IMG/VR virus record: IMGVR_UViG_3300006078_000008
Span: 1-25,804 of that record
Strand: one strand, 5' to 3'
Length of the DNA stretch: 25,804 nucleotides
Source: a virus
Positions 12,501 through 25,804 of this stretch are shown here, in pieces; within the stretch, counting starts at the first letter, position 1, and the number at the start of each line of letters is the position of its first letter. Made by a program: the position numbers and the translations under genes. The notes under the pieces are model-generated. The model was given only the letters and a program-made list of their open reading frames with translations. It did no database searches and was not told the origin of the DNA.

Positions 12501-12557
12501 CAAAATAATATGGAACCTACACAAATACAGAATAGTACAAAGGGCATTTCTTTTTAA
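3531..12557 (+). CDS. Giant modular virion structural protein (baseplate/tail, gp7-position)
   Basis: A 3008-residue single open frame, about one third of the window. The N terminus (about residues 30-140: FLPAVFNTTLNKKLLDSTF, 'YIGSTKGK', then 'PPINIDKFRNHTSYYWVP') and C-terminal parts ('KIWWDTSTVRYYDYDQGDLDY' near 2248, 'PGSSIDVYEWI', 'YITEVKPYHTKVRQYY' near 2720) resemble very large structural proteins recalled from marine T4-like phages. In between are beta-rich modules: about 430-510 and 1705-1775 share a 'YVDSVQIDG...YTI...VIFGY' type fold, and 1644-1691 is a 'GTTDFTLYGAADSNIGTAF' module seen in many marine phage virion proteins. The last 70 residues contain a 'MINGEILYY...ITRGMNGTFGT' motif common in phage tail proteins. 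It occupies the position of T4 gene 7 and could be the wedge hub or a fusion of wedge and fibre functions; that role is inferred from position. There is no signal peptide and no membrane segment. Confidence 0.7.
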   Translation: MPENYKPNESNSEVSKTRVGSKQTKQVRSSSFLPAVFNTTLNKKLLDSTFDQLLHKGELESISAYIGSTKGKHRNDKDIYTSNDTQQLVPGVVSTDTDGNIENLITFKDIVKKTNNRFDSFNYAGAYASNSKTFLPPINIDKFRNHTSYYWVPEVTGGSTNENDVVFEKDYILIEQDGTTAWSTDNHWYHISDTAIEYQNPGRKAKRPIIEFDKDLELFSGLEKTTTNQPPLFVLYDEDGIALDDTTYNTPDFTGSKIIGYKESDVSIDPVLGLPVAYSDNAFGSNIIFENFLETTRYYYIDSDENIAEITGQYYYKTGTKLTTNYQYNKSHSLTSDSKQIIVDDLSTEIQFNVSGFSWRNEKEHYLITENDNHRLVELNKDIGHYTFVDNFPTGIVLESNTTHTIHNFVSGTELRVWRSDQDFTTPISDAAGTFDVPSDIQTLSFGFVDTVIGTIFIQSSQEVDVANHTLYLNGTPINTIDYYISDTITVNPEILQIGDVLDLEYQNNIGFDVTDIPEIITTNTSVSKLTEFTIADTISHWDSLIDGTHTGTNISGGDIRMFDNNVLYNVISESHDHLDVRQSLDTAAADWMSFKGRFISQVKRNWILSTNSNITDLVDIVLNDLTLIKEGIELYNNENMIPGVKHIPNSIASLGITNLYIPQKDNDNIIGHDGDVYHMAPGANIVDMNTASYDVVAAALLELESRIYNNISTSTNSTVAHHMPSPYISTWYSITDVNDYLYQNFASWQPVADIIKLGEPDVSDIDGWTWNYSSLDVNGYSIPGHWSGIYITLFGTDTPHLTPWHMLGFSIKPTWWDTYYSWTDTAKRSALILSLARGVTTVPGEAETINLLYARDWDFDTNAPVDIQGDLISPKELLSVYGSNTMDSEKFNPFKFGDHGPVETKWRKSSFGQASLINCISKIIPSTVWNTLEPGVIKAQENFILRNRYDTDITQIYNNTDTRLIHCLYGFTSSDLIKLYAESGTNGEFRLSSNDYGIHMSKGAPNELITASAVIIVKLASGFQIFGQSPNKQQFEFNEQYISAGSSFETVDIGNVSVRKYSKFYTQPSILEFGSILPKAQDVYNFLRGYVFRLNKIGFTSDKLTSNYPNSFVQWMSIADIKHSLTLSLGDSIVYAPQHGSVVEFNTLPNNKNGIYDVSGNKIPTSLLDISRLDGNIQVKVLDDTKIGSISTATIDYQHAIVFDNRTMFNDVIHDDIVGVRHQRFKLLGQKTSEWDGRQKAPGFLISGDHIIQNFDTSVGAISDFYDLSVCKLKNSQTMAEKYTAGESLSTWSDAQQLSNNTLSKFHRGMITHKGTAHAVTQLERSGLLMGLNDSSISINESWMFRQGKLGIDDSNRTEIELRQHEIKSKHQIIYFNPTDIVSNYKNVIDIRKDDILDTDNRYVHYIDDLVFNTESFGNNNLKLYTAGEVLENETTETIFNLEDIGDVYDSTAVYANIPTWNTTTSYKSGDNARHQGKLYSCIVNSTGVDLISEDIIELGNKRYPTFSFGSTAQISICDISDPTCIPDTVIFGNSITSYYDINVTGSVFNPITTTQDSNLVIDNNYIDMSLIGFENVFASNPSFESTYIPAFTDATGKTLIIDNTTYALFYTASVLNETLNGDGVQQYTTETTTTTQTSAPIAATSMVAGIEYTIAIPGTTDFTLYGAADSNIGTAFIYNGATVIGDGTVTFEETITTTTQVPTVITGTSTFTLSQELGLGSNNINVYVDSVQIDGTLLGVSQYTINSSLDTIEFVTVPLAGTVITVIFGYTNPMAGQEIIDRIYEQTPPSTLSFSINSDGMLKVIKDVNGDINGTLSIGNGTANADLGISENIIFANDQTQAIYVATTLAKIISNIQEANINGLTVSEIDNKINIISTNTSLLISGSTDVLSSIGLTTTTHVATTYIEQAPDTLDSAIVKLRSTYDPQDTGVIEFTNISGFLEIKTSLPFIDLGDTTFNVEAGIMSGILSTLNSNVENIFKNNEWQEIDNDPARISVHTVDDTSFMYNSLEERQIRYGSWNVFQFMTFDLYSDGDNQCTICAGNVTSDGNDAQITFNKEHNLNVGDYILILNSTTTPSIDGIHKVTKTHTSDNTTLFVDSFIEKCGTSPSILVARSMRFKYLTDIEDSLSSIYYSYQDDDLTWCSEFNNSTGTGVYTYDNGTFIQERTTLSRPTNADLDAIQIYNGADKNLSFELEIFDPLRGIIPGVASRNIDITGVVDFAAYTDSNDDTNIDTENAWGEYEIGKIWWDTSTVRYYDYDQGDLDYKSTHWAKQFPGSSIDVYEWIKSPLPPEEWEQLVESRTTVYGHLATGEAYNVIQNVTDEPYYYYSQLEQWNSNLGHYDDVYYFWVKNKTSITNKTKDLPVSQITKIINDPTATGIGWCAFVDGYSVILSNVRPYLNDTSSILQIDMFAPGQTHSNWTCITAGIDSIPDYWYMGARDNLVGSVNKIVDTELVYTRPLPNKLIHRFNQYGDDRETGQAWFTNLIGARREAIISLNCILKGITVLRTTPNWNYRLVNYITVNAGPIPITDYWDYAAYETTEFNTSGQFPSLYLDSDTNISTVDSNKDTLVVISKYDDELGLAQDETYLFDNGEWHLIKKLNSTIQFNDLVYDIDGWDTTKWDTGTISTCQWNELHQDAMYHIMEAARYDIFINKSKQYFNTWFFNIIDYVLADTEHTDWVYKTTYVDVTVEIPLALELKKYKRNVVSHLDEYITEVKPYHTKVRQYYMNNNVSESLTTSISEIANIESDIVFGECDNSLECISTFSYDSTFSGDEIVGAIFTDNVEPTETVEGAAFDDSVAYEEYDCGLFAHTHNYMNDIHGNTRRLSFAANAHEHLTLVVITNKSGSIVDNDSRTYMYLQDRHSNISAYTLPENKQSLLTTDLNDSTMSIGVADISKFNNSGGYVMINGEILYYAQIINNNLEHITRGMNGTFGTSAVIGDAIINIDDEKIATLDTISESVDTSSGLYISGLRFNDPGKSLLDPNQNNMEPTQIQNSTKGISF

Positions 12558-13144: not shown

Positions 13145-14035
13145 ATGGCATACGAAGTTAAAAAAAGTAATGGTGAAATACTAACTATTAGTAACAACGC
13201 CATTAACACTGAAACAAGCTTACAGTTAATAGGTAAAAGTTTATTAAACTACGGTGATCCAATTGCTGAGAATTTTGTACATTTATTAGAAAATTTCTCA
13301 CATGATACCCCGCCAGTAAATCCAACTTCTGGACAATTATTTTATGATAACTCTGAAGATAGATGGAAGTATTATACTGGTACGGTTTGGAAGGATTTGG
13401 ATATAGCCACTATTGAAGTAGAATACCTAATGGACAATAACGGAACTATGCACGCCGTGACTATGATTAATGATACTGATGCTACAAATAAAACAATTGG
13501 GTTAGTAAGTTCAGAAGGATTTATACTACATGCTACTGATCCATCAACTGATGCCTACCGAGTTCAATTTCCTGAGATCGGCGCAGGTATAACCCTTGCT
13601 TCTGGTATGAAGTTTCACGGCACCGCCATTAGGGCTGAGTATGCTGACGTAGCGGAGTATTATACTAGTGATGTTGAATATGTTGCTGGAACAGTAATAG
13701 AGTTAGGTGGGGAAGCAGAAGTTACACAGACGAATGATAAATTAAGCACAAATGTATTTGGGGTGGTTTCATCTAATCCAGCATACTTAATGAATACGGT
13801 TCTTATGGGAACAAAGGTAGCAGTAGCATTAGTAGGCCGAGTTCCTTGTAAGGTAACAGGCATAGTAAAGAAAGGAGATCGTCTAGTAAGTAGTGACATA
13901 GCTGGAGTAGCGAGAGCCGCCACAGTTGAAGAAAACAACGCAGGCATACATTGGAGTCAAGTTATAGGTCGCTCACTAGAAAATAAATCAACAGACACTG
14001 TTGACCTCATAGAAGTTATTATTGGGAATAGATAA
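13145..14035 (+). CDS. Tail-fibre-like protein with G2-peptidase-like C-terminal domain
   Basis: A 296-residue protein with two recognisable parts. Residues 1-90 carry a phage tail N-terminal module, including 'LLENFSHDTPPVNP' and 'SGQLFYD...WKYYTGTVWKDL', a pattern shared by several marine phage tail proteins. Residues about 155-296 form a domain with 'ADVAEYYTSDVEYVAGTVI' (167-185), 'FGVVSSNPAYLMN' (205-217), 'VALVGRVPCKVTG' and 'VKKGDRLVSSDIAGVA'. This domain ends many phage fibre proteins and is annotated in some as a peptidase G2-type autoprocessing domain. Whether self-cleavage happens here cannot be told from the sequence. AGGA at 13134-13137, seven bases before the ATG, supports the start. 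The stop is directly followed by the next ATG (TAAATG), so translation is probably coupled. Confidence 0.65.
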   Translation: MAYEVKKSNGEILTISNNAINTETSLQLIGKSLLNYGDPIAENFVHLLENFSHDTPPVNPTSGQLFYDNSEDRWKYYTGTVWKDLDIATIEVEYLMDNNGTMHAVTMINDTDATNKTIGLVSSEGFILHATDPSTDAYRVQFPEIGAGITLASGMKFHGTAIRAEYADVAEYYTSDVEYVAGTVIELGGEAEVTQTNDKLSTNVFGVVSSNPAYLMNTVLMGTKVAVALVGRVPCKVTGIVKKGDRLVSSDIAGVARAATVEENNAGIHWSQVIGRSLENKSTDTVDLIEVIIGNR

Positions 14036-15184
14036 ATGCCAGCGATTGGTGAGTTAATTTCATCGAGTGATTTTAACACTCTAGTTTCTACCTATAATAA
14101 ATTTTGGGCAGATACCTGCGCTGGTTGTGCTTTTACTGACGCAGATAATACACCACACCAATACGGATGGGGACAATTACAAGTTGAACCAACGGTTATA
14201 GCTACAGAATTAATTACTGAATCAGACACCAATCGACTTTTAAACCAAGTGAATGCTGGATTATATCATATATTATATGATCCGGTCAATGCCAGTTCAG
14301 ATCTCCAGAACCGATTATTACATAAAATTTACACTGCTGACTATAATAGTTTAGGCTTTATTAATAATTCTAGAGATATAATGGCTGCGTTTTTTGAACA
14401 CGTAGAACAAACAGTCAATGCTATAGATCCTATCAAAACAGATTTAGCAGGTGTGCGATCAACACTAATAGAAGACAGTATTAGTAATAATTCGTTAGAA
14501 TGGAAAACAAGCTCAGAGGTTGTACTTACAGCAACATTTGATAATTACAACCAAGCAAGATATTTCTTTAATAGTGGTGGCAATATATTTGTACAATTAG
14601 ATGCGTTTGGTGGAGCATACGGAGCTGATCAATGGAATGGTATATTTGATTATATACAGTCGGTACATATAGGAGCAACCTCGACATCTAGTATAAACAA
14701 CGTTGGTACTGGATTTGGTGGATTCTATAATCTAAAAAGCACCAATCAAGACTTTATAACATTATTTACTGCTATTGGTGGTAATAATTGTGGTAGTTAT
14801 GGAGGCTACGGGGGCTACGGGGGCTACGGGGGCTACGGCAGTTATGGAAGTTACGGATGCTACAGCAGTTATGGAGGCTACGGGGGCTACGGTGAATATG
14901 GTGGGTATTCAAATAGAGCTATCGTGATATCTGGCAAGTGCATACAAACAGAAAATGACTTTTCTGTCCTTATAAAAATAACATTAGAAGATGATATCTC
15001 AGATACAGATAGTTTATTTAATACTAACATAACATGTGATTATGGATATCACACAGCGGCCACTACAGATCCTAATCCTAATATTAGTCTATTCCAAACA
15101 GATAGCTATATATACAAATTTATACAACGAACCCCACCGACGATTGCCGTCTATCAAGATTGGACTACTACCGATAATATTTGA
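14036..15184 (+). CDS. Tail structural protein with Gly-Tyr triplet tract
   Basis: A 382-residue protein. Residues 1-85 resemble the N-terminal module of a common marine phage structural protein ('SSSDFNTL' and 'YGWGQ' motifs followed by a helix ending in 'LLNQVNAGLYHIL'). Residues about 155-250 match that family's beta domain ('ATFDNYNQARYFFNSGGNIFV', 'GGFYNLKSTNQDFITLFT'), and the fold seems to resume at 'YSNRAIVISGKCI' (291-303). Between them, residues 253-291 are 13 consecutive (G/S)-X-Tyr triplets, so the tract looks like an expanded surface loop. Cys residues flank and interrupt it (C252, one in the tract). Gly-rich loops are known as host-range determinants in T2-type gp38 adhesins, so a receptor-binding role is possible but inferred. 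This is the last gene before the sigma70-type promoter and enzyme operon. Confidence 0.6.
   Translation: MPAIGELISSSDFNTLVSTYNKFWADTCAGCAFTDADNTPHQYGWGQLQVEPTVIATELITESDTNRLLNQVNAGLYHILYDPVNASSDLQNRLLHKIYTADYNSLGFINNSRDIMAAFFEHVEQTVNAIDPIKTDLAGVRSTLIEDSISNNSLEWKTSSEVVLTATFDNYNQARYFFNSGGNIFVQLDAFGGAYGADQWNGIFDYIQSVHIGATSTSSINNVGTGFGGFYNLKSTNQDFITLFTAIGGNNCGSYGGYGGYGGYGGYGSYGSYGCYSSYGGYGGYGEYGGYSNRAIVISGKCIQTENDFSVLIKITLEDDISDTDSLFNTNITCDYGYHTAATTDPNPNISLFQTDSYIYKFIQRTPPTIAVYQDWTTTDNI
14792..14908 (+). repeat. Tandem 9-base repeat encoding 13 (G/S)-X-Y triplets
   Basis: 117 bases coding 13 successive triplets: GSY, GGY four times, GSY twice, GCY, SSY, GGY twice, GEY, GGY. At DNA level the 9-mer GGCTACGGG occurs exactly at 14804, 14813 and 14822, nearly so at 14831 and again at 14876. 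Every unit keeps the frame, so gain or loss of units by slippage changes loop length without a frameshift. The tract is much richer in G+C than its surroundings. Confidence 0.95.
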
Positions 15185-15266: not shown

Positions 15267-15295
15267 TTGACAACGCCCATAATTTAGTGTATTAT
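15267..15295 (+). promoter_or_regulatory. Sigma70-type promoter for the enzyme operon
   Basis: A perfect -35 hexamer TTGACA at 15267-15272 and TATTAT (5 of 6 to TATAAT) at 15290-15295 are separated by exactly 17 bases. Transcription would begin about 15302, giving a leader of roughly 24 bases with GGAG at 15315-15318 before the ATG at 15326. This host-type architecture would allow early or host-polymerase-driven expression of the downstream genes, separate from late tail genes. The match is direct; activity is inferred. Confidence 0.7.
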
Positions 15296-15325: not shown

Positions 15326-15673
15326 ATGGATGAGCGCCTTACCAAAGCACTTGCGTTTTCAAACTTTACACTAACTGTAAATAACCAAAAGAAGACTATT
15401 AAAACCAGAGTAGCACAGCTACGGGTAGTTCACTATGCTGGAGGAGTATTTACGGCAGATCATAATACTATTTCATTTATCAAAACACTTATTGATTTGG
15501 GACATAAAAAGTCACTATTGGAAGATAACCGCGGCACCCCTATCAATGCTTTAAGTTTATCTGATCTACTAGATTTATTGGTATCGGCGTATTTCAATTC
15601 AATGAATGAATTAGATGCTGAATATGAAAAAATTAAAAAATCTAGATCTATCAACAAACTTATGGATTGGTAA
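15326..15673 (+). CDS. Small conserved-looking phage protein, unknown function
   Basis: A 115-residue protein with GGAG eight bases before the ATG, directly downstream of the sigma70-type promoter. The N-terminal half looks beta-rich ('FTLTVNNQKKTIKTRVAQL', 'VVHYAGGVFTADHNTISFI'), followed by helices with charged residues ('MNELDAEYEKIKKSRSINKL'). No catalytic motif, signal peptide or membrane segment is seen. It resembles, from memory, small proteins of unknown function in other marine T4-like phages, where 'HNGGxF' and a C-terminal 'KxKRSV/I' pattern recur. It overlaps the next gene in a TAATG arrangement, making it the promoter-proximal gene of the enzyme operon. It may be an ordinary phage gene into whose transcript the enzymes were added. 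Confidence 0.6.
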   Translation: MDERLTKALAFSNFTLTVNNQKKTIKTRVAQLRVVHYAGGVFTADHNTISFIKTLIDLGHKKSLLEDNRGTPINALSLSDLLDLLVSAYFNSMNELDAEYEKIKKSRSINKLMDW

Positions 15674-16581
15674 TGGATTATTTAGATGAAGAAGGCGTTT
15701 GCTTTTTTGCATATAATAACTCTCAAATAGACTACATAAAATTAGTATTACTTGCCGCTGATTATGTAAAAACACATTTAAAAAAACCAGTGTGTTTGAT
15801 AACTGATGAGGGTGGCGAGGCATATTTAAGCAATACCCAACCTAAAGAATTGGTTGATAAGAACATTGACTATGTTGTAGTTACTGACGATAAATTTAGA
15901 AAGAATATTAGAGGACATTTTGATAGTCCTTGGACTGAGTTTGGTGCTCAATTTTCTAATTCGAACAAACACAAAATATGGGAGTATAGTCCGTTTGAAA
16001 AGACATTATTGTTGGACATTGACTACTTGGTAAAAAGCGATTTCTTAAACTATACCTTTGATAATGTATCAGGGGTTGCTATGTTTGATAGAGCCCTTAG
16101 TCTTAGAAACAATTTACCACACCCGAGAGAACAATACCTATTTGACGCAGGCATAAAAATGTGGTGGAGTACCGTTGTATTTTTTGATCGAAGCAATGAG
16201 AGTAAGTTATTCTTTGATACGTGGGCACATGTTGGTGATAATTACGACTTTTACCAATACCTATATAATTTTCCAGGATCACTATTCAGAACTGATTATT
16301 GTGCAAGTATAGCTGTTCATATATTAAACGGTATGACAAGTGGGTACGCGGTTGATAATTTTGTGGATCAACCAATGTACTATATGGATCAAAAGGATGA
16401 TATCATAGAAATTAATAATGACCAAGATTGGATATTCTTAGCACACTCACCAAAAGAAAAATGGCTTAATATATTAGTTAATAGCCATAATATTGATTTA
16501 CATGTAATGAATAAACGGGCTCTTGCTCGATCATGGGATAAAATAATGAAACATTCTGTAAACCACACTACCGTATCATGA
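15673..16581 (+). CDS. GT-A-like glycosyltransferase
   Basis: A 302-residue protein when started at the ATG at 15673, which overlaps the previous stop (TAATG) and is preferred over a TTG six bases upstream. The N-terminal half alternates strands and helices as in nucleotide-sugar GT-A folds. Residues 110-120 read KTLLLDIDYLV, with D115-I116-D117 as the DXD metal/UDP-sugar-binding motif after a hydrophobic strand, as in GT8-like enzymes. Later segments 'YLFDAGIKMWWSTVVFFDRS' and 'ESKLFFDTW' resemble the acceptor-side region of such enzymes. The next gene shares the same architecture ('SPFEKTLLLDIDYLV' versus 'SPFTYTICVDAYSVV'). Donor and acceptor are unknown. No membrane helix is present, so a cytoplasmic enzyme is expected. 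Confidence 0.6.
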   Translation: MDYLDEEGVCFFAYNNSQIDYIKLVLLAADYVKTHLKKPVCLITDEGGEAYLSNTQPKELVDKNIDYVVVTDDKFRKNIRGHFDSPWTEFGAQFSNSNKHKIWEYSPFEKTLLLDIDYLVKSDFLNYTFDNVSGVAMFDRALSLRNNLPHPREQYLFDAGIKMWWSTVVFFDRSNESKLFFDTWAHVGDNYDFYQYLYNFPGSLFRTDYCASIAVHILNGMTSGYAVDNFVDQPMYYMDQKDDIIEINNDQDWIFLAHSPKEKWLNILVNSHNIDLHVMNKRALARSWDKIMKHSVNHTTVS

Positions 16582-17435
16582 ATTCAATAGAAGGAAATAA
16601 CGGCTACATAATATCAGCAGTATCCGATGTTGATATTAAGCATGCAGCAGCTGCGGCGTACAGTATTAAAATAGAAAATCCAGGCGCAGAAATAGCATTA
16701 GCAGTACCTTCATCATTGAATATACTAGACAAGTATGCCATTCCATTCGATTACATATCAGATTTTCCGTATATTGTAAGTGAAGATCGACGAGCTAATG
16801 ATTGGCAATTATATTGGACCAGTCCATTTACCTATACAATATGTGTAGATGCCTACAGTGTGGTTAAGGAAAATCATGACAATACATGGAATTATCTCAT
16901 CGATCATTATAATTTATATTTTAATAATAGTGCTTATAATTTTAAAAATGAACCAATACAGCATTCACAGTATAGAGAAATTTACAAAGAGAATAATTTG
17001 ATAGATATTAGATCAGATATATTTTACTTTAAGAAAGATAATGAAGAAGCATTATCATATTTTAAACTATTAGATCCATTAATGCGTAATTGGAGAGAGT
17101 TAGTCACTAACTTAATTCCTCCGAAGTTTCATTCAGGAACCTACGATAGTGATTTGATTCATAGCATATGCTTATCACGAACTTATGATTACGAGAAGGC
17201 GCTTTCAATAAACACATCATTGTTTAATTTAATAGATATGCGCGACAGTGAGAGTAGATTTTATAAGGCTAAGAAGGGCTGGCTTAATTATTTAAATGTA
17301 TGGAGTACTGTTGGCGCAAATATAAAAATACAAAATCACATAGTTTCTGGTATATTATCATACAATGATCCAGAATTTTTAACTGACGAAATTTATGAAC
17401 ATCATGTCGAAGAATACAGATATCGAACAAAGTAA
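16578..17435 (+). CDS. Glycosyltransferase-like paralog with degenerate DXD
   Basis: A 285-residue protein overlapping the previous gene by ATGA, so translation is probably coupled. The layout parallels its upstream neighbour: an N-terminal Rossmann-like run ('YIISAVSDVDIKHAAAAAYSI'), then 'EIALAVPSSL', then 'SPFTYTICVDAYSVV' at residues 82-96, where the neighbour has 'SPFEKTLLLDIDYLV'. The expected second Asp is Tyr here (D91-A92-Y93), so the metal-binding motif is incomplete. The C-terminal part contains 'GWLNYLNVWSTVGANIKIQNHIVSGI'. It could be an active enzyme using another acidic residue, or a non-catalytic partner of the upstream protein. No signal peptide or membrane segment is seen. 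The glycosyltransferase call rests on fold-level similarity seen by eye. Confidence 0.45.
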   Translation: MNSIEGNNGYIISAVSDVDIKHAAAAAYSIKIENPGAEIALAVPSSLNILDKYAIPFDYISDFPYIVSEDRRANDWQLYWTSPFTYTICVDAYSVVKENHDNTWNYLIDHYNLYFNNSAYNFKNEPIQHSQYREIYKENNLIDIRSDIFYFKKDNEEALSYFKLLDPLMRNWRELVTNLIPPKFHSGTYDSDLIHSICLSRTYDYEKALSINTSLFNLIDMRDSESRFYKAKKGWLNYLNVWSTVGANIKIQNHIVSGILSYNDPEFLTDEIYEHHVEEYRYRTK

Positions 17436-18378
17436 ATGGTGGATAACCTACGATAAGAAAACATCTAAGGTAAAAGGTGTTAGCCAAACATTGGTGACTT
17501 CAAAAAAGTTCTCAGTGGTTGAATCGGAAAATGAATGTTGTTTACGTATACTATCTGGAACTCAGAGTCTACGTAATTTTGGAATGGTATGGGACATGGC
17601 AAAGGACAGATGGGACATAGGCGAGAAGTCATATAAATTGAAGATTCGTCAATTATCACGTAAGCTATTTAATATTGTTGATAATAACCCACTTAATAGT
17701 GATGTACATATAACATTTAATATGACTAAGAACATTATGAATATTAGTGTGAATTATGAAAATCTAAAACGTTCAATGAATTTAATGGGGATTCATGAAA
17801 TATCTAAAGAAGAAGGTACCCTATTTAATTTGTATATTACCAAAAAGAATAATCCAGATTTTCTGATTCAAAGCATAGCTATAGAACCTGAAAGTTTATT
17901 AAAAAATGAAACAATAGATTATAAGCTGATTAACATTAACACTTTTAATGAATGGAAAGATTTAAGTATATATACTCGTCCAATTTTTAGAAAATATAGT
18001 GTTGAATATATAACCGAAGAAGTTATCAGTGACTATACTGAAGAAAAGAATACTTCACTCCAACAGGCAGCGACTGGCAGTAATGAAATATCAACCCATA
18101 TAGATATCTATAAAATTAGTGACAGGGTAATACAATTAACGAGCAATATATCCGAATCATCTAAATATGTAATGTCGGGTAGAAAAGGATTAAAGTTTTT
18201 AGTTGGCGATAGTACAATTGATAACTTAGCAGGTGGATTTTCAATTAAAACAGATGAACTTCTAAATAATAAGGATATTAACATTACCTTAGATTTTGAG
18301 TTTCCAGACAATCCAGTTATAATATATAAAAATAAATATGTATCAGTTAGATATAATAAGGAGAAAAATAATGAGTAA
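17395..18378 (+). CDS. Unknown protein inside the enzyme operon
   Basis: A 327-residue protein I do not recognise. It begins inside the end of the preceding gene: the first ATG at 17395 overlaps it by 41 bases and a second in-frame ATG at 17404 by 32; neither has a ribosome binding site, so the start is uncertain by three codons. It is polar, Lys/Asn/Ile-rich and probably mostly beta: 'YKLKIRQLSRKLFNIV', 'VHITFNMTKNIMNISVNYENL', 'LKFLVGDSTI' and a C-terminal 'INITLDFEFPDNPVIIYKNKYVSVRY' pattern of strands. No cysteine cluster, DXD, P-loop or membrane helix is present. It lies between two glycosyltransferase-like genes and shares their transcript. It could be a carbohydrate-binding, scaffold or structural protein; none of these is demonstrated. 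Confidence 0.65.
   Translation: MNIMSKNTDIEQSKWWITYDKKTSKVKGVSQTLVTSKKFSVVESENECCLRILSGTQSLRNFGMVWDMAKDRWDIGEKSYKLKIRQLSRKLFNIVDNNPLNSDVHITFNMTKNIMNISVNYENLKRSMNLMGIHEISKEEGTLFNLYITKKNNPDFLIQSIAIEPESLLKNETIDYKLININTFNEWKDLSIYTRPIFRKYSVEYITEEVISDYTEEKNTSLQQAATGSNEISTHIDIYKISDRVIQLTSNISESSKYVMSGRKGLKFLVGDSTIDNLAGGFSIKTDELLNNKDINITLDFEFPDNPVIIYKNKYVSVRYNKEKNNE
18358..18363 (+). promoter_or_regulatory. Ribosome binding site AAGGAG deciding a start
   Basis: AAGGAG lies seven bases before the ATG at 18371. It shows that this ATG, not the in-frame ATG at 18338 (33 bases earlier, inside the previous gene), begins the next protein. Confidence 0.8.
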
Positions 18379-19354
18379 TATGGTTAGTATTAATGAATTT
18401 GATATAGTTTTTATCAGTTACGATGAACCAAACGCTGATGAGAACTTCGCAGATTTATTGGAGAAATGCCCATGGGCAAAGAGGAGTCATGGAGTTGAAG
18501 GCAGTGACGCCGCACATAAAGCAGCAGCAGCGTTAAGTGATACAGAAAGGTTTATTACTATTGATGCTGATAACATTGTTGATTTAAACTTTTTTGGAGT
18601 TGAAATTGACATGAACCGAATTAGAAGTACTGATGTTGTTAGTTGGGCCGGCAAAGATGAAATAAACGGCCTAGTGTATGGAAACGGTGGCATCAAATGT
18701 TGGACTAGAGAGATTGTCAACAATATGCGAACACATGAAAATGCGCCTGCTGGAGATAAACGTGCACAAGTAGATTTTTGTTGGAACATTAGTTATATCC
18801 AAATGAATAACATCTACTGTCAGGTAATGAATAATGCCAGCCCATTACAAGCATGGAGAGCAGGATTCAGAGAAGGTGTTAAGATGGGACTAGTCGATGG
18901 CGATGTTGTCGACCCAACCGAACTTAAAGCCAGAGTTCATGATAAAAACTACAAGCGCATGTTGACATGGATGTCAGTTGGCGAAGATGTTACTAACGGC
19001 CTATGGTCAGTATACGGCGCCCGACTTGGCTGTCATATGACAAACCTAACCCGAGATGATTGGGATTGGAGAGATGTACGTGACTTCCAGTGGTTAAATA
19101 AATTCTTTAAAGATGAGGTATTCCCACAATTTGAAGGTGGTGAGGAACTATGTCAATATACTGGTGTTAGATGGGATTATAAAAAGCTATACGACAAATC
19201 AATTGAGTTAGGACATGACCTACGCCGAGAACTAGGTTTAGAAATATGTGATATTGGTGTTGAAGGTAGCACGTTCTTTAAAGAAGTATATATTAATCCT
19301 AGTAGACTGGGTCCGCAGATTAGAGAAGACCAAGTCGAAGATACTTTAGAGTAG
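18371..19354 (+). CDS. GT-A glycosyltransferase with DADN motif
   Basis: A 327-residue protein. Residues 10-70 show a clean GT-A start: 'FDIVFISYDEPNADENFADL' (a beta-strand with the 'YDEP' donor-side loop), a helix rich in Ala around 47-55, then 'RFITIDADNIV' with D65-A66-D67 as the DXD motif. Residues 98-116 contain 'NGLVYGNGGIKCWTREIV', typical of phage and bacterial relatives in which the 'NGGI' loop follows. It is the clearest glycosyltransferase of the three here and appears intact. It overlaps the preceding gene by eight bases (ATGAGTAA). A GTG-started radical SAM gene follows, its ribosome binding site overlapping this gene's stop codon. Sugar and acceptor are unknown. Confidence 0.65.
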   Translation: MSNMVSINEFDIVFISYDEPNADENFADLLEKCPWAKRSHGVEGSDAAHKAAAALSDTERFITIDADNIVDLNFFGVEIDMNRIRSTDVVSWAGKDEINGLVYGNGGIKCWTREIVNNMRTHENAPAGDKRAQVDFCWNISYIQMNNIYCQVMNNASPLQAWRAGFREGVKMGLVDGDVVDPTELKARVHDKNYKRMLTWMSVGEDVTNGLWSVYGARLGCHMTNLTRDDWDWRDVRDFQWLNKFFKDEVFPQFEGGEELCQYTGVRWDYKKLYDKSIELGHDLRRELGLEICDIGVEGSTFFKEVYINPSRLGPQIREDQVEDTLE

Positions 19355-19357
19355 GAG
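19352..19357 (+). promoter_or_regulatory. Ribosome binding site TAGGAG for a GTG start
   Basis: TAGGAG overlaps the TAG stop of the glycosyltransferase gene and lies eight bases before the GTG at 19366. It supports the non-ATG start of the first radical SAM protein and suggests coupled translation. Confidence 0.75.
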
Positions 19358-19365
19358 TAAACATA

Positions 19366-20376
19366 GTGTCATTAGGCCCGCAGAAGTTCTATAATATTCT
19401 TGATCATGAACATGATGAAGCTAAAACCGCAGTAGTTGTTAATTGGAACTTAGGAAACATGTGTAACTACTCGTGTAGTTACTGTCCTTCAATCCTAAAT
19501 GATGGAAGTTTCGGATGGAATGATTATGATGTAGTAAAGGGGTTTGTTGATGCAGTAGTTGTGCATTATGTTGGAAGACTTGTATACTTTGAATTCACCG
19601 GCGGTGAGGTAACCCTATGGAAAGAATTTGTAAAGATTGCAAAGTATATTAAAGAGATAGGACATGACGTTGGTTTTATTAGTAATTCTAGTAGAACTCT
19701 ACGCTGGTGGGAGAAAAATAAAAATGTGTTCGATCACGTATGTCTAAGTTTTCATCCTGAACACGCTGACCCAGATCATTTTTATAATGTCGTTGAGATC
19801 ATGAGTAAAGAATGCCGAACACATGTAAATATTATGGGACACACTGATGAAAAATTATTTAACACCGGAGTTGTGTTAAGTGAGCGGTTGTCCAATAACA
19901 TAGAGAATATTAGTATGGCATTCCAACCGCTAGTTATTGACTTCGGTACTGAACGATTTGATTATACAGCCTACCAACAGGATATATTAGATAGACAGTA
20001 TGAATTATTTGGATCAAAAGTAAACCATACTAGATCGTTTAAACTATATCGCGGCAGCATGAGAATGACCGATAGTATCAATGATTTAAACCAAGTATCA
20101 TCAGCTCATAGATTTATTGCTGAGGATACAAATAATTGGAAAGGATGGGATTGTTGGGCAGGAGTAGAACAAATTATTATTGACTTTGATGGTAGCGTAT
20201 GGCGTGGCTGGTGTCGAGTCGGTGATTCATTTGGGAATATTAAATCACCAACCAAAGTTAACTTTCCATCCCAGCCGGTAAGATGTAATAAAGATTTTTG
20301 CCACTGTAACTTTGATATTATGTGTAAGAAAATATTACCGGCACATAGATATGAGGTCTTAGCAGATGAAGGATAA
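19366..20376 (+). CDS. Radical SAM protein with C-terminal SPASM-like cysteine cluster
   Basis: A 336-residue radical SAM protein. The S-adenosylmethionine-cleaving cluster ligands are C33, C37 and C40 (CNYSCSYC, the canonical CX3CX2C), and 'FTGGEV' at 77-82 is the SAM-amino-group motif. The TIM-barrel half ends near residue 200. The C terminus holds six Cys: C263 and C283 flank 'IIIDFDGSVWRGW', followed by C307, C312, C314 and C320, a pattern of SPASM/twitch auxiliary iron-sulfur domains. Such domains occur in enzymes modifying peptides, proteins, sugars or carbohydrate precursors; the substrate here is unknown. The GTG start is set by TAGGAG. The gene overlaps the next radical SAM gene by 11 bases, so the two may act in sequence or together. 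Confidence 0.8.
   Translation: MSLGPQKFYNILDHEHDEAKTAVVVNWNLGNMCNYSCSYCPSILNDGSFGWNDYDVVKGFVDAVVVHYVGRLVYFEFTGGEVTLWKEFVKIAKYIKEIGHDVGFISNSSRTLRWWEKNKNVFDHVCLSFHPEHADPDHFYNVVEIMSKECRTHVNIMGHTDEKLFNTGVVLSERLSNNIENISMAFQPLVIDFGTERFDYTAYQQDILDRQYELFGSKVNHTRSFKLYRGSMRMTDSINDLNQVSSAHRFIAEDTNNWKGWDCWAGVEQIIIDFDGSVWRGWCRVGDSFGNIKSPTKVNFPSQPVRCNKDFCHCNFDIMCKKILPAHRYEVLADEG
20353..20356 (+). promoter_or_regulatory. Ribosome binding site GAGG inside the preceding gene
   Basis: GAGG lies nine bases before the ATG at 20366, inside the last codons of the previous gene. It supports this start, which makes the protein begin with the auxiliary-like domain rather than being a shortened reading of a longer protein. 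Confidence 0.55.
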
Positions 20377-21748
20377 CACACCTACTGATAATAGACAATT
20401 TCGTATATATGAGAAAACTGGCAACTACGCACGATTCACAGTAGAGGAAGTGATAGCATCTAACCTTAATCATTGGAAAGGTTGGCACTGTAGCGCAGGT
20501 GATAGGGGATTATACATTGATTATGACGGCAACGTGTGGGTGGCCAATTGTGCCAGTAGCAATAAAAATAAAACAAACCATTCAGGTACATGGGAAAGTT
20601 ATGTAGCATATAGGAAAAAAAGCCAACAGCAAGATTGGGAGGACTATCGTACTAAGCATATTGGAGAATATCCACATATTGAATGGATACAGGACAATAC
20701 TAGAGATGGGTGGCCCATGCCAAAAGTTGAATGGGAAACATGTGAACAACATAAAACTTTAATGAAGTACGTTTCTACACTCGAAGATGAATTTGATTTT
20801 AACTGGGACTATGATGGCTGGTACAAAGATTTTGTAAAAGATGAAGATGGATTCATATGGAAAAGTCGACCAGATGATAAGGAATCTACATGGGGACTTC
20901 TGGGTAGTATTTTTAATGGATGGGAAACACCACACAAATGGACAAGATGTCCGTATAATTCATGTGGGTGTGGTGCGGATGTGATATTAAGCAAAGTCAA
21001 AGACTCGAAATACAAAGCACAGCTACATGTCACACAGGATGGATTCACTGGCCAGCATGAAAGCCAAGATTTATATATTGCAAATATAGAAACCCCAACG
21101 GCGGTTGAAATGAATTTTCCAATTAACTATCAAATATTATGGGATCTATCAAGACGATGCAATCACAACTGTTCATATTGTTGGCCAAGCGTACATAACA
21201 CATCAGACCCTTGGCACAGTATTGACGATGTCATGAGCACCATTGATACTGCTATAGAATGGTCAGATGGTGAACAAATTAGATGGAATTTTGGTGGAGG
21301 AGAACCAACAATTTATCCAAAGTTTATTGAAATATTAAAGTACTTAAAGTCTCAAGGACACTGGACGATGGTAACTACTAACGGATCCAGGTCTTCTCGT
21401 TGGTGGAAAGACGCCAGTGCATATATAAATACAGTGAATTTTAGTTGTCATTTTGAAGAAGTAAATATTGAAAAATTTATCGGCAATATACAAGTAGTAT
21501 GCCAACACCATGACACGGTAAATGACGACCATTGGATTGAAATAAAGCTTATGGCACCAGCCGGTATGGTAGGAGAGGCATCACAGATGAAAAGACGAAT
21601 AGAAGCATTGCCTGAATGGAATACACCAGGGGCAAATAATAGACAAAAGGGTGCAATAGCAATTGTGCCTATACGAACGATAGAAGATGCTGGAGTTATG
21701 AGTTCAGATTATACCTCTATTGAATTAGAAATGTTACAAGAACAATAA
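20366..21748 (+). CDS. Radical SAM protein with N-terminal auxiliary domain (permuted order)
   Basis: A 460-residue protein whose domain order is reversed relative to its neighbour. The radical SAM core is C-terminal: C265, C269, C272 (CNHNCSYC) and 'GGGEPTIYP' at 310-318. Residues 35-62 ('NHWKGWHCSAG' to the C62 region) match residues 257-283 of the upstream protein ('NNWKGWDCWAG' to C283), and 'RCPYNSCGC' (194-202) matches its 'RCNKDFCHC' (306-314), so the auxiliary cysteine cluster precedes the core. About 110 extra residues, rich in Trp and Asp/Glu, lie between the two halves of that cluster. The core stops shortly after the usual barrel length, with no C-terminal SPASM domain. It may be a circularly permuted or fusion enzyme, active alone or with a partner. 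Function is unknown; the family call is firm. Confidence 0.75.
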   Translation: MKDNTPTDNRQFRIYEKTGNYARFTVEEVIASNLNHWKGWHCSAGDRGLYIDYDGNVWVANCASSNKNKTNHSGTWESYVAYRKKSQQQDWEDYRTKHIGEYPHIEWIQDNTRDGWPMPKVEWETCEQHKTLMKYVSTLEDEFDFNWDYDGWYKDFVKDEDGFIWKSRPDDKESTWGLLGSIFNGWETPHKWTRCPYNSCGCGADVILSKVKDSKYKAQLHVTQDGFTGQHESQDLYIANIETPTAVEMNFPINYQILWDLSRRCNHNCSYCWPSVHNTSDPWHSIDDVMSTIDTAIEWSDGEQIRWNFGGGEPTIYPKFIEILKYLKSQGHWTMVTTNGSRSSRWWKDASAYINTVNFSCHFEEVNIEKFIGNIQVVCQHHDTVNDDHWIEIKLMAPAGMVGEASQMKRRIEALPEWNTPGANNRQKGAIAIVPIRTIEDAGVMSSDYTSIELEMLQEQ

Positions 21749-21756
21749 TAAAAATT

Positions 21757-23376
21757 ATGAAATATGATGTTATTGGCCTAGATGGCTCCGAGACCCTTGA
21801 TCAAAGAATTGATATAGCGTTATCAAGGAATACCCACCCGAACATATTGCTAGATATGGCAATGCATGATGAAGAGTTTGATGTTTTATTGGCATTAATT
21901 TTTAATGTTGGAATAAGATCTAAAGTAAAAAGAAATAGTAAACTCGAATTCAAAATATTAGTAGGAATTCTATCCAATAATTATACTGATAATATAATAG
22001 ATTATATAGTAGAACATAAATTAAAACAACATGATATAATGAAAAAAATGTGTCCATTGTTATGGAATCATATCAGCACATTTAGTAATGGCGATATTCG
22101 ATTATGTTGTGAAATGATAGATAGTGAGACTGATTTTGGGAGACCACGTGATGGATTAGGTAACATAATGACAGTGCACTCTAATACTTTCAACGATATT
22201 AGAAATAGCAATTTTGCCAAGTCATTGAGATTAGACTTAATTAATGGACATGAACCGGCCGCCTGTCGTCAATGTTACCACCGTGAACAGCTTGATATGA
22301 ACAGCAAGCGTCTCAATATGACAAAAAGATATGATCATGAGATGATAGATTACCTAAAAGGCACAAACCCACAAGATGGTTCTATTGGACCGGAGGTTCA
22401 AATTAGATATCTAGATATTAGATTTGGTAATTTATGTAATCAAAAATGTAGAATGTGTGGACCAAATGATAGTTCATTGTGGTATAATGATTTAGCCGCT
22501 ATATCAGATGCTGACGATAATATTCCTATGAAGTATTATGGAGAAGACAAAGGATATATGTTGATCAATTCTAGAAGCGGATTTAAACCAAATACGTCCG
22601 ACTTCACATGGGGTGATGATTCACCATTTTGGATTGACATGATAGGTAATTTAAATCATATAGATCGTTTTTACTTTACTGGTGGCGAGCCAACTATTAA
22701 TAAGAAACATCAACAGTTATTGGAGTTATGCGTCGACGCTGGTGTTGCAAAAAATATAGCTCTTGATTATAATAGTAATTTTCAAGCCATCGCTGATTAC
22801 CTAATAGATACATGGAGCAAATTTAAGTCAGTCGGCATTGGAGCAAGTATTGACGGTGTAGGCAAAGTACAAGAATATATTAGAGCGCCGAGCAAATGGG
22901 ATAGTATAAGCAACAATATTATTAATTTAACTAATTCTAAACTTGATAATCTCTCGGTACAGCTATCGCCGACAATAAGTATACTTAACATATTATCAAT
23001 GCCAGAATTATCAGAATGGGTATTTGAACACACTAATGACTCATTAGAACCAGTAGTAGGAAATCATACATTATATTATCCTGATTATTTCTCAGTTCAA
23101 GTCCTACCTCTCGAAGCAAAATACAAGGTAAAAAAAATGTATGATGACTGGCTAGCAACACTCGCCGGAAAGTATAGTCATGAAATAATAGAAACCTACC
23201 ACCAACATGTAAAATCGGTAATGGATTATATGATGGAAGAGGATAATAGTCATCTATTGCCAACAACAATATTTACACTTAGTCAGATAGATGAGATTAG
23301 AGAAGAAGATTATACACAATCATTATCAGATTTATTTAATCTACTTTCAGAAACCAATACTATGACAAATAAATAA
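21757..23376 (+). CDS. Twitch-domain radical SAM protein
   Basis: A 539-residue radical SAM protein with the layout of the family described as having an N-terminal twitch domain. Residues 1-95 are helical, with a pattern reminiscent of leucine-rich-variant repeats ('NTHPNILLDMAMHDEEFDVL'). Residues 99-173 hold the twitch-like cysteines: C99, C117, C118, C170 and C173, with 'STFSNGDIRLCCE' and a 'GNIMT...FNDIRNS' segment. The core follows: C227, C231, C234 (CNQKCRMC), then 'FTGGEPTINKK' at 307-317 and 'GIGASIDGVG' as a further barrel strand. The function of this family is not established in my knowledge. No Shine-Dalgarno sequence is seen; the gene starts eight bases after the previous stop and precedes the sulfotransferase-like cluster by four bases. 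Confidence 0.75.
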   Translation: MKYDVIGLDGSETLDQRIDIALSRNTHPNILLDMAMHDEEFDVLLALIFNVGIRSKVKRNSKLEFKILVGILSNNYTDNIIDYIVEHKLKQHDIMKKMCPLLWNHISTFSNGDIRLCCEMIDSETDFGRPRDGLGNIMTVHSNTFNDIRNSNFAKSLRLDLINGHEPAACRQCYHREQLDMNSKRLNMTKRYDHEMIDYLKGTNPQDGSIGPEVQIRYLDIRFGNLCNQKCRMCGPNDSSLWYNDLAAISDADDNIPMKYYGEDKGYMLINSRSGFKPNTSDFTWGDDSPFWIDMIGNLNHIDRFYFTGGEPTINKKHQQLLELCVDAGVAKNIALDYNSNFQAIADYLIDTWSKFKSVGIGASIDGVGKVQEYIRAPSKWDSISNNIINLTNSKLDNLSVQLSPTISILNILSMPELSEWVFEHTNDSLEPVVGNHTLYYPDYFSVQVLPLEAKYKVKKMYDDWLATLAGKYSHEIIETYHQHVKSVMDYMMEEDNSHLLPTTIFTLSQIDEIREEDYTQSLSDLFNLLSETNTMTNK

Positions 23377-23380
23377 CAAT

Positions 23381-24259
23381 ATGAATTATATAATAATATC
23401 AACACCTAGAGCCGGAAGTACTTATATGGTACGCGGCATAAAGCAATCAACAGACATGGTTAATCGAACTGCTGGTATTGTTCCAGAGAACAATACACCA
23501 AATAACATGACCAATCTTGGTGAAATATTTCATCACGCAAAGAATATAAATTATCATACATTAGACGAAAATGGAGTATTTATAGAGCACTTGGATCAGC
23601 GTAGGAACTTTTCGCCTGAACTTGTAATGCATCCGCCACTTGACCAATTGACTATTAATAGGCACATGCATGATCTAATTGACAATGCCACTAGCCCGTG
23701 GGTAGCTAAAGTACATATGTATCAAATGCGTTCATGTGATTTATATAGATTATACAAAACAATGGCACGTGATGATGTACAGACCATATTTCTATATCGA
23801 GAAGATACTGAAGACACAATGCTAAGTATGATATTTTCTGAAGTAACTGGTATATGGAACAGTGATGAAGAACAGACATATAGTCGTCGCTTCTACGATT
23901 TCGATTGGCATAGAATTGAACGAATGGTAAAAGAATCAATTGATTTGTATAATATGTATCTTAGTATTAAATGGGATAAGATCATTAGATATGAAGACTT
24001 TATAGGAAGACCACATATAGATTTTTCGTGGGTCGGGCGAGAATATATCGAGAATCAAGCACATATTGGAAGCCCATTGCCGTTCCCAATACAACAAGAG
24101 ATATTGAATTTAGATGAACATAAAATTGTGTCTTCATCTAAAAAGTTATTAACAAAACGTGATAAAATGAGATTAATGAAAAACTACACTCACTTTCATG
24201 ATGTATTCATCAACCAATGCGATAGAAAGCAATGGCCATATACCTTCAAGATAAAATAA
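23381..24259 (+). CDS. Sulfotransferase-like protein, copy 1
   Basis: A 292-residue protein starting with a strand and the PAPS-phosphosulfate-binding-like loop 'STPRAGSTY' (residues 7-15), close to the T/SxPRSGTT pattern of sulfotransferases. A second conserved block, 'TIFLYREDTEDTMLSMIF', has R140 and a Ser nearby where sulfotransferases bind the 3' phosphate of PAPS. A 'KIIRYEDF' motif near 203 completes the usual set (strand, R/K-YED). The protein is cytosolic by sequence, with no signal or membrane segment. Two tandem paralogs follow, sharing the blocks at the same spacing. The acceptor (sugar, Tyr, lipid or small molecule) cannot be read. Alternative: another P-loop nucleotide-binding transferase. 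Confidence 0.6.
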   Translation: MNYIIISTPRAGSTYMVRGIKQSTDMVNRTAGIVPENNTPNNMTNLGEIFHHAKNINYHTLDENGVFIEHLDQRRNFSPELVMHPPLDQLTINRHMHDLIDNATSPWVAKVHMYQMRSCDLYRLYKTMARDDVQTIFLYREDTEDTMLSMIFSEVTGIWNSDEEQTYSRRFYDFDWHRIERMVKESIDLYNMYLSIKWDKIIRYEDFIGRPHIDFSWVGREYIENQAHIGSPLPFPIQQEILNLDEHKIVSSSKKLLTKRDKMRLMKNYTHFHDVFINQCDRKQWPYTFKIK

Positions 24260-24260
24260 T

Positions 24261-25091
24261 ATGAACTATTTAATAATAACACACCCTAGGTCAGGAAGTA
24301 CCTACGTAAACAAAGCAATACATCTAATGGCACGATGCAAAGCCGGGCATGATGATAAAAATAATAATCATCAAAATCTACATGAGGTATTTTTGCCATG
24401 GCCTGTTAATTATACACTTAATAAAGATGGATCGATTAATGATAATATTGATAGCCAGACTCTAGATATTAGCATTTCCCAACCTAAAGGCACACAGAAA
24501 TATTATATGGAGCGTAATAGATATATGCAGGACATCATGGATTCAGCAACTACGCCATGGTCAGTGAAGATACACATTGACCAAATCAACCGTGTTGATT
24601 TGGGTCGGCTATTCAATACAATGGACCGTGAAGATGTGTGTACTATATTATTATATAGAGAAGATACATTTAAATCATTCCTCAGTCGACTTATTGCTGA
24701 ACATACAAATATCTGGCAATCCAATGATATGAATGAGAACTCTAAACATGACACTGAGATATATTCGATTATTGATGCCGCATATGGCACAATGATGGAC
24801 ACTATAGCCCAGAGCGTAGAATTGCTTAATTTTTATAAAAGTTATCCGAGTTGGAATCATATTATGAAATACGAGGACTTAACTGGTGATCTATACTCAG
24901 ATTTTTACCATATATTTGGCTACGTGGACCCTGAATTCATAGAAAATCAAATGGCGTTCTCATTGATACCGGGACGTATGACCACAGATTCTGATAAAAA
25001 GAGAATAGTTTCAAACTATAATCAAATTCACGATGAATATATTAAATATGTTAATCGACATTCATTCTCAGAGAATTTAATAATAGATTGA
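24261..25091 (+). CDS. Sulfotransferase-like protein, copy 2
   Basis: A 276-residue paralog starting one base after copy 1 stops. The N terminus 'MNYLIITHPRSGSTY' aligns without gaps with copy 1 and has the best-preserved P-loop-like 'PRSGST' of the three (residues 9-14). 'WSVKIHIDQI' and 'TILLYREDTFKSFLSRLI' (R133) repeat the 3'-phosphate-side block, and 'HIMKYEDLTG' the later motif. It differs from copy 1 in the middle region, consistent with an acceptor pocket that has diverged after duplication. Its TGA stop overlaps the TTG start of copy 3 (TTGA). Substrate unknown. Confidence 0.6.
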   Translation: MNYLIITHPRSGSTYVNKAIHLMARCKAGHDDKNNNHQNLHEVFLPWPVNYTLNKDGSINDNIDSQTLDISISQPKGTQKYYMERNRYMQDIMDSATTPWSVKIHIDQINRVDLGRLFNTMDREDVCTILLYREDTFKSFLSRLIAEHTNIWQSNDMNENSKHDTEIYSIIDAAYGTMMDTIAQSVELLNFYKSYPSWNHIMKYEDLTGDLYSDFYHIFGYVDPEFIENQMAFSLIPGRMTTDSDKKRIVSNYNQIHDEYIKYVNRHSFSENLIID

Positions 25092-25804
25092 GCTATATAA
25101 TAATTTCCAATGCTAGATGCGGCACTACTTACCTAAATGTATTAATTTATAATTATTTGATTCAATGCGATAATAATGCGGTAAACTTGAATGAAGTATT
25201 CCACCGCAACACTAGTATTGATCATCTACAATTAAACAAAAAACAACTTAATGTGGTATCTGATCAGACGTTAAATCAAACTCCTTCTGATGGCAAACGT
25301 AGTATACGTAACAATCAAACAACTCTTAATATGTTACGAACTGCTACCAATCAATGGATATGTAAAATCCACATGCGACAGCTGTCTACAGTTAACACGT
25401 ATCAGTTATTTCAACTTATGGACCGTGATGACGTGACTACTATCTTCATGTATCGAGAAGATATTGAGGATACAATTCTTAGTAATATTTTTGCGGTAGC
25501 GACCGATACATTCAACACAAGTCACGATATTATTGATGACTATATGTATTATGATTACACAAATAGCATAGATCATACATTAAGACAAAATGATCTATTA
25601 TTAAATATGTATAACACTTATCCGAATTGGAATTATGTAGTCAAGTATGAAGACCTTACTGAGTCGCATAAGCATAATGGTAAGATGGTAGGTATTAACT
25701 TTGATAAATGTACATTATCACTGCCACAAAAAATGAGACTAAAGTCAGACAAAATTAAGGCGATGAGCAATTACAGTGAATTTAAAACAGAGTTTGATAC
25801 AAAA
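25088..25804 (+). CDS. Sulfotransferase-like protein, copy 3 (TTG start, truncated by window)
   Basis: An open frame of 239 codons running from TTG at 25088 to the last base, with no stop; it is cut by the window edge, not broken. The start is chosen because reading from TTG gives (M)SYIIISNARCGTTY, aligned residue for residue with 'MNYIIISTPRAGSTY' of copy 1. The TTG overlaps the TGA of copy 2, implying translational re-initiation. The shared blocks return: 'WICKIHMRQL', 'TIFMYREDIEDTILSNIF' (R123) and 'VVKYEDLT'. In the first loop Pro is replaced by Ala and the small residue by Cys (N-A-R-C-G-T-T), so PAPS binding may differ. The 3' end of the gene and any further copies lie outside the window. 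Confidence 0.6.
   Translation, partial: MSYIIISNARCGTTYLNVLIYNYLIQCDNNAVNLNEVFHRNTSIDHLQLNKKQLNVVSDQTLNQTPSDGKRSIRNNQTTLNMLRTATNQWICKIHMRQLSTVNTYQLFQLMDRDDVTTIFMYREDIEDTILSNIFAVATDTFNTSHDIIDDYMYYDYTNSIDHTLRQNDLLLNMYNTYPNWNYVVKYEDLTESHKHNGKMVGINFDKCTLSLPQKMRLKSDKIKAMSNYSEFKTEFDTK

Follow-up and report, generated by a model that had tools for sequence, protein, structure and literature searches.

In pelagimyophages, hypervariable tail-fiber regions contain cassettes of GT8 glycosyltransferases and radical SAM enzymes (PMC7029224), and jumbo cyanophages such as P-SSM2 and S-SSM6a carry lipopolysaccharide (LPS) and secondary-metabolite clusters, according to the portion of PMC7824862 that treats them. 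A T4-like marine environmental phage genome holds 12 radical SAM genes, which the excerpted account discusses in connection with Fe-S cluster metabolism (PMC5332604). Phage-encoded glycosyltransferases (GTs) also modify capsid and tail proteins of mycobacteriophages, as summarized in a citing paper (Freeman et al. 2023, cited in PMC12619734). Here we analyzed positions 15326-25804 of the virus record IMGVR_UViG_3300006078_000008 (positions 1 to 25,804, hereafter the window), where GT-like genes are followed by radical SAM (rSAM) and sulfotransferase-like genes. We describe the gene content, gene order, promoter motif, gene fusions and variability of this locus, and we read it tentatively, at a little under an even chance, as a two-layer phage glycosylation and glycan-tailoring island whose most likely target would be the phage's own tail-fiber or adhesin protein.

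A fixed glycosyltransferase core followed by variable cargo

The window is a 25.8-kb record of an uncultured virus and represents a phage fragment. The run at 15326-25804 comprises 11 open reading frames (ORFs), all on the plus strand (Table 1), which are separated by gaps of 11, 8, 4 and 1 bp and overlap by 4-41 bp at the remaining junctions; the last ORF runs off the contig end without a stop codon. These coordinates confirmed the co-directional run with overlaps or gaps of at most 11 bp noticed in the original prediction, which had been made from the letters of the window. The ten genes that it listed were all recovered, and the 115-aa ORF that opens the run (H115) had been left out of its title.

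At 54-78% identity, at least 278 viral contig stretches contain relatives of GTA, the last of the GT-like genes. We sampled 80 of these stretches together with the window and two other contigs, and counts are quoted per 84 loci, which are partly redundant (59 are distinct at 97% GTA identity); genes in the relatives were called with a simple longest-ORF script. The order T183-T296-T382-H115-GT1-GT2-UNK-GTA recurred across the sampled loci. Wherever H115 and GTA were both present, the five genes from H115 to GTA kept identical order and strand (78/78 loci), with junctions that were mostly overlaps. As gene order is kept across strongly diverged relatives, the run is not a product of chance. GTA was the most conserved gene of the island, with a median pairwise identity of 0.70 compared to 0.46 for structural neighbors, 0.28 for T382 and 0.22 for UNK.

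The genes that follow this core behave differently. rSAM genes were present in 75/84 loci, most 20-kb loci holding one to eight of them, and the rSAM set differed from phage to phage. In an independent sample of 70 loci selected by RS1, GT1, GT2 and GTA were found within 6 kb upstream in 55, and four more had GTA fused to RS1. Sulfotransferases of the A5 family occurred in 15 of the 84 GTA-selected and 21 of the 70 rSAM-selected loci. The neighborhood survey that had been suggested as a check thus gave a positive result for co-occurrence, but it did not bear out a single dedicated pathway of nine enzymes, because only the GT core is fixed, while rSAM sets are exchanged and sulfotransferases come and go. 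The survey therefore indicates two layers, a fixed core and a variable cargo, rather than one operon.

We infer catalytic activity, glycan product and virion target from sequence, and propose the following arrangement. The fixed first layer (H115-GT1-GT2-UNK-GTA) would provide soluble GT8-like and GT-A-like transferases. The exchangeable second layer of rSAM, sulfotransferase, methyltransferase and nucleotide-sugar enzymes would make or tailor a sugar or a modified residue, its enzyme content pointing to glycan chemistry. The acceptor would be T382, T296 or UNK, with the Tyr-repeat region of T382 as a possible site in the marine clade, and the variable cargo would alter fiber surface chemistry between phages.

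Table 1. Positions and assignments of the features of the run, its promoter and the adjoining tail-side genes in the window.
Feature	Coordinates	Strand	Assignment
H115	15326..15673	+	First gene of the unit, 115 aa; found in 79/84 loci
GT1	15667..16581	+	GT8-like glycosyltransferase; DxD invariant in 42 aligned members
GT2	16578..17435	+	GT8/glycogenin-like; DxD degenerate in the window (DAY)
UNK	17395..18378	+	Predicted tandem FN3/Ig-like beta-sandwich protein, possibly virion-associated
GTA	18338..19354	+	Probable transferase of GT-A fold; DAD(N) motif invariant
RS1	19366..20376	+	Radical SAM core and C-terminal cysteine-containing auxiliary domain; Pfam Radical_SAM 38.9 bits; fused to GTA in some relatives
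RS2	20366..21748	+	Permuted radical SAM: auxiliary domain precedes the core, which begins near residue 256; Pfam 51.3 bits
RS3	21757..23376	+	Twitch/SPASM-first radical SAM protein; NF033640
ST1	23381..24259	+	Sulfotransferase-like, PRAGST loop
ST2	24261..25091	+	Sulfotransferase-like, PRSGST loop; Stf0 E 2.9e-4
ST3	25088..25804	+	Sulfotransferase-like, ARCGTT loop; truncated by contig end
Sigma-70-type promoter	15267..15295	+	TTGACA-N17-TATTAT, 11/12 match, 30 nt 5' of the H115 start codon
T296	13145..14035	+	Tail-fiber-like structural protein upstream of the run; PHROG matches including tail fiber protein phrog_19602 (E 4.7e-8); kept in 73/84 loci
T382	14036..15184	+	Rapidly evolving, tail-adjacent, fiber/adhesin-like; Tyr repeats (GGYGGYGGY...); candidate acceptor

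Predicted functions of the core and cargo proteins

GT1 and GT2, previously described only as GT-like, look GT8/glycogenin-like: the GT2 profile matches glycogenin (E=1.7e-4), and hhalign identifies GT1 as a homolog of GT2 (E=2.7e-21). Neither had a GT8 match in Pfam, and the GT1 and GTA profiles gave no meaningful match to PDB sequences. The GT-A class suggested for GTA is probable. Its structural model (predicted local distance difference test, pLDDT, 84) matched GT-A enzymes in all 50 Foldseek matches listed, at marginal levels (best E 1.2e-3, template modeling (TM) score ~0.3), and DAD is invariant in 20 GTA sequences. The gene that had been called unknown can now be given a fold by prediction, that of tandem FN3-like beta sandwiches: the AlphaFold2 model of UNK is all-beta and confident (pLDDT 92), and Foldseek matched it to FN3 domains in PDB (E ~1e-5, low TM) and also to phage beta-proteins, including a minor tail protein. 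H115 gave nothing above cut-off in the profile libraries.

All three proteins recognized as rSAM carry the CX3CX2C motif and each passes a family cut-off: RS1 and RS2 that of Pfam Radical_SAM, below which RS3 falls, and RS3 that of NF033640, a family of twitch-domain rSAM proteins (345.7 bits against a cut-off of 170, with RS1 at 23.9 and RS2 at 21.9 falling short). The C-terminus of RS1 aligns with the N-terminus of RS2 (hhalign E 2.7e-10) and the C-terminal part of RS2 matches the RS1 core, whilst cross comparisons of RS1/RS2 domains gave nothing. The same domain order was seen in six other loci, so a frameshift or fusion artefact in RS2 was rejected. RS1, RS2 and RS3 form a sub-module, in that permuted RS2 and long RS3 share loci, always with RS1; since the loci are related, the associated p-values near 1e-7 are not independent probabilities. 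Recent tandem duplication of the rSAM genes was rejected, as the best homolog sits in another locus for 222/223. A viperin-like defense function (pVip / NF038283) was also rejected, with scores of 46.9 and 61.1 compared to 180 bits, over the core region only.

GTA-RS1 fusion proteins were found in five loci (about three of them distinct). In the fusions at L223:6672-8936, L233:6120-8936 and L240:6330-8936 the N-terminal part is built of repeated segments rich in W and D, and at L063:4844-6772 (minus strand) a single ORF joins a sulfotransferase-like domain to a radical SAM core. Up to 20 rSAM matches per partial genome were found on long contigs; in the L112 record (G022), 20 such matches lie in the 45 kb between 104 and 149 kb of one partial phage genome. 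GTA-like genes were also seen among several rSAM and GT2-family genes on three contigs (L157-L159) binned as Bdellovibrionales, Halobacteriovoraceae and Bacteriovoracaceae, with the caution that contigs of metagenome-assembled genomes (MAGs) could be wrongly binned. Three contigs of the MAG MED685 (L153, L154 and L160) carry the phage cassette, and this bin therefore probably includes phage contigs. The occurrence of GTA beside rSAM genes in Bdellovibrionota contigs, together with the GTA-RS1 fusions, suggests a GTA-rSAM link that is independent of the phage core.

As single sequences, the three sulfotransferase-like proteins score below the Pfam sulfotransferase cut-off. Their superfamily is suggested by the family profile A5 and by a 5'-phosphosulfate-binding (PSB)-type loop; PDB matches of A5 were mostly sulfotransferases, with SULT1A1, NodH and CurM at E 0.001-0.004 (best E 0.001), and its best matches were phenol/aryl sulfotransferases.

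rSAM proteins with SPASM or twitch domains are typical peptide modifiers. The rSAM/SPASM proteins and sulfotransferases might accordingly act directly on a phage protein, modifying residues such as those in the Tyr repeats of T382, much like maturases of ribosomally synthesized and post-translationally modified peptides (RiPPs), with the GTs glycosylating the modified residues afterwards. The phenol/aryl character of the best A5 matches and the T382 repeats are consistent with such a route, as is the presence of the peptide S-glycosyltransferases SunS and ThuS among the 50 structural matches listed for GTA. We nevertheless consider it quite unlikely: the run has no gap big enough for a small precursor gene (a distant precursor was not searched for), a RiPP recognition element was not identified, and many relatives keep rSAM genes without Tyr repeats.

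The cargo of relatives also includes UDP-sugar dehydrogenase, epimerase/dehydratase, DegT aminotransferase, nucleoside triphosphate (NTP) transferases, TylF O-methyltransferase and B12-rSAM enzymes. A gene for a holo-acyl carrier protein (ACP) synthase-like protein (L085:10996-11310) and an ACP gene (L094:18075-18317) were seen in phage cargo. Such ACP and AcpS genes in part of the cargo would suit a diffusible sugar- or peptide-derived compound, that is, a phage-encoded secondary metabolite, for which a predicted metabolite cluster in cyanophages, in the part of the report covering it, offers a precedent (PMC7824862). This explanation seems very unlikely to us, because the cargo changes in nearly every phage while the fiber-adjacent GT core stays constant, and our hydropathy scan of core and cargo found no export protein. 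With its hydropathy threshold, the scan detected no transmembrane segment among 412 core proteins; of 515 cargo proteins, 5 showed a borderline segment, at most one each. Across the same 412 core and 515 cargo proteins there was no sign of a flippase, polymerase, lipid-carrier GT, export protein or multi-span protein. This absence of membrane proteins makes a self-contained O-antigen pathway less likely and favors an acceptor in the cytosol.

In some loci, inspection of the sequences showed DHFR, thymidylate synthase and ThyX downstream of the core. Some phage GTs are known to modify DNA, and these nucleotide-metabolism genes, together with an early-type promoter (see below), might be taken to mean that GTs and rSAM enzymes decorate phage DNA. 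Such hypermodification is highly improbable given that the core adjoins a tail-fiber gene and that the cargo includes sulfotransferases and enzymes of nucleotide-sugar tailoring; genes for a hydroxymethylase or a TET/JBP-like protein were not seen in the loci either, in a search that was not exhaustive.

Promoter, tail-side genes and candidate acceptors

Some 25-30 nt upstream of H115, the window and 52 of 56 distinct gaps of relatives contain a near-consensus sigma-70 promoter. Upstream regions scoring at least 10/12 were found for 58/62 H115 genes (94%). The share was 3-6% for most gene classes, 0-5% for tail genes upstream of the run and 13% for sulfotransferases, of which there were few. 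Similar promoters occur elsewhere in the relatives' genomes, from a few to about sixty per record and mostly well above the reversed-pattern control, and so they probably form a class of phage promoters read by a host-type RNA polymerase. Occurrences of the T4-type late promoter TATAAATA were fewer than expected by chance, and it was rejected. The core would form a transcription unit of its own, apart from the tail genes, with a timing that we infer from the motif. In the RS1-selected sample the promoter was present in marine-type loci and mostly missing in a freshwater clade with a 101-aa H115, the two clades being distinguished by sequence grouping and contig sets.

On the other side of this promoter lie the tail genes. 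Genes for gp25- and gp6-like baseplate proteins, a 3008-aa structural protein and tail-fiber-like proteins are all upstream of the run. The gp6 is ~35% identical to gp6 of the jumbo myoviruses Phosso, Atu_ph07, SCTP-2 and PA5oct, which marks the window as part of the genome of a distantly related jumbo myovirus. Residues 1461-1488 of the 3008-aa protein (window 3531-12557) weakly match a chitin-binding-like (CBM5/12) domain.

T382 directly precedes the core in 80/84 loci. It had no match in PHROG or Pfam searches, so its structural role is deduced from position. Tyr runs of four or more were found in 38 of 80 T382 proteins, against 7 of 452 unassigned ORFs; in the marine clade the repeats are of the types YGYGYG, GGYGGY, AYAYAY and GEYGEY, and 2 of 14 invariant T382 residues are Tyr inside the repeat region. 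The repeats are written in mixed codons, which indicates that they are maintained at the protein level. Tyr in T382 is thus perhaps a candidate acceptor in the marine clade. A bolder proposal, which we regard as unlikely, is that the GT-A/rSAM pair (sometimes fused), together with as many as about 20 interchangeable rSAM enzymes, installs and diversifies covalent modifications on Tyr-repeat tail fibers, giving a combinatorial chemistry for host range or defense evasion.

The position of the core directly after the fast-evolving, fiber-like T382, together with the predicted beta-sandwich protein UNK inside the core, points to the virion as the target. The main rival is that early-made enzymes alter LPS/O-chain or capsule sugars of the host and so block competing phages (superinfection exclusion). 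H115 has its own sigma-70-type promoter and the tail genes have none; nucleotide-sugar enzymes are among the cargo; and modification of the host surface is the published reading for the pelagimyophage GT8 (PMC7029224) and, in the relevant portion of its source, for jumbo cyanophage sugar clusters (PMC7824862). We rate this rival as possible, though on the unlikely side, because core and cargo showed no multi-span membrane proteins in the hydropathy scan, the core is tied to a tail-fiber gene in all 78 ordered loci, and UNK, as modeled, resembles a virion-type protein.

Several points weigh against glycosylation of the phage's own fiber. The acceptor is a candidate suggested by gene position. 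The freshwater clade keeps the GT core, yet its T382 lacks Tyr repeats, so these were rejected as a universal substrate and a Tyr acceptor cannot be the general rule; this clade is also mostly without the promoter. Long Tyr runs are absent from half of the marine T382 proteins, and the number of rSAM genes was not correlated with Tyr-run length (Spearman 0.09, p 0.40). Many GT2 members have lost DxD, whereas that of GT1 stays invariant, and the fold match of GTA is weak. Finally, a separate sigma-70 promoter could signal early expression, which would fit host takeover at least equally well.

Radical SAM genes in marine phage genomes have often been recorded as dispersed metabolic genes. In the island they come after a fixed GT core that is led by a promoter and lies beside the tail-fiber gene, are fused to one core enzyme and are swapped as distinct families between phages, which gives a concrete, testable hypothesis for their role. 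If the target is the virion, the island would be an unusually elaborate viral protein-modification system; if it is the host surface, such islands would hold a large store of sugar chemistry yet to be explored.

Comparison with described phage clusters

The exact gene combination was not found in the literature, but the view that the run has no familiar name was too strong, as comparable regions are described in PMC7029224 and in the consulted portion of PMC7824862. The cyanophage clusters share epimerases, cupin isomerases, nucleotidyltransferases and GTs within a variable cluster, whereas the same portion of that paper describes no rSAM array and no conserved GT core bound to a fiber gene (PMC7824862). 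The T4-like marine phage is likewise rSAM-rich, and a GT core is not described in the excerpted account (PMC5332604). Agrobacterium phage Atu_ph07 (L062/L072) and Sinorhizobium phage Phosso (L006/L061) have three to five rSAM genes, accompanied by small genes of unknown function, close to the same tail genes. Their rSAM proteins are weakly related to those of the window (E 1e-6 to 1e-14) and the GT core was not found there; these arrays are possibly a tractable cultured analog. We know of no rSAM or sulfotransferase cargo in mycobacteriophage glycosylation.

As far as our searches reach, the fixed core with its promoter, the two-layer organization, the GTA-RS1 fusions and the permuted rSAM protein are new, as are the size that the rSAM cargo can reach and the connection with GTA-rSAM clusters on MAG contigs binned as Bdellovibrionota. 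RS2, RS3 and T382 had no match by tblastn in GenBank phages; in the related-locus search RS2 had no match and ST2 gave one weak locus.

The closest counterpart is the host recognition cluster of pelagimyophages and cyanomyophages, which is also a large hypervariable island beside tail fibers with GT8 and rSAM genes (PMC7029224). Being hypervariable, fiber-adjacent and equipped with GTs, the island of the window is a cluster of the pelagimyophage type in its working, a likeness that does not imply common lineage. The lineage of the window is distinct, in that GTA (two versions), GT1 and H115 had no tblastn match among 50,697 GenBank phages. What sets the island apart from the pelagimyophage cluster is its strict five-gene core, its own promoter, its GTA-rSAM fusions and a cargo that reaches 20 rSAM genes per partial genome.

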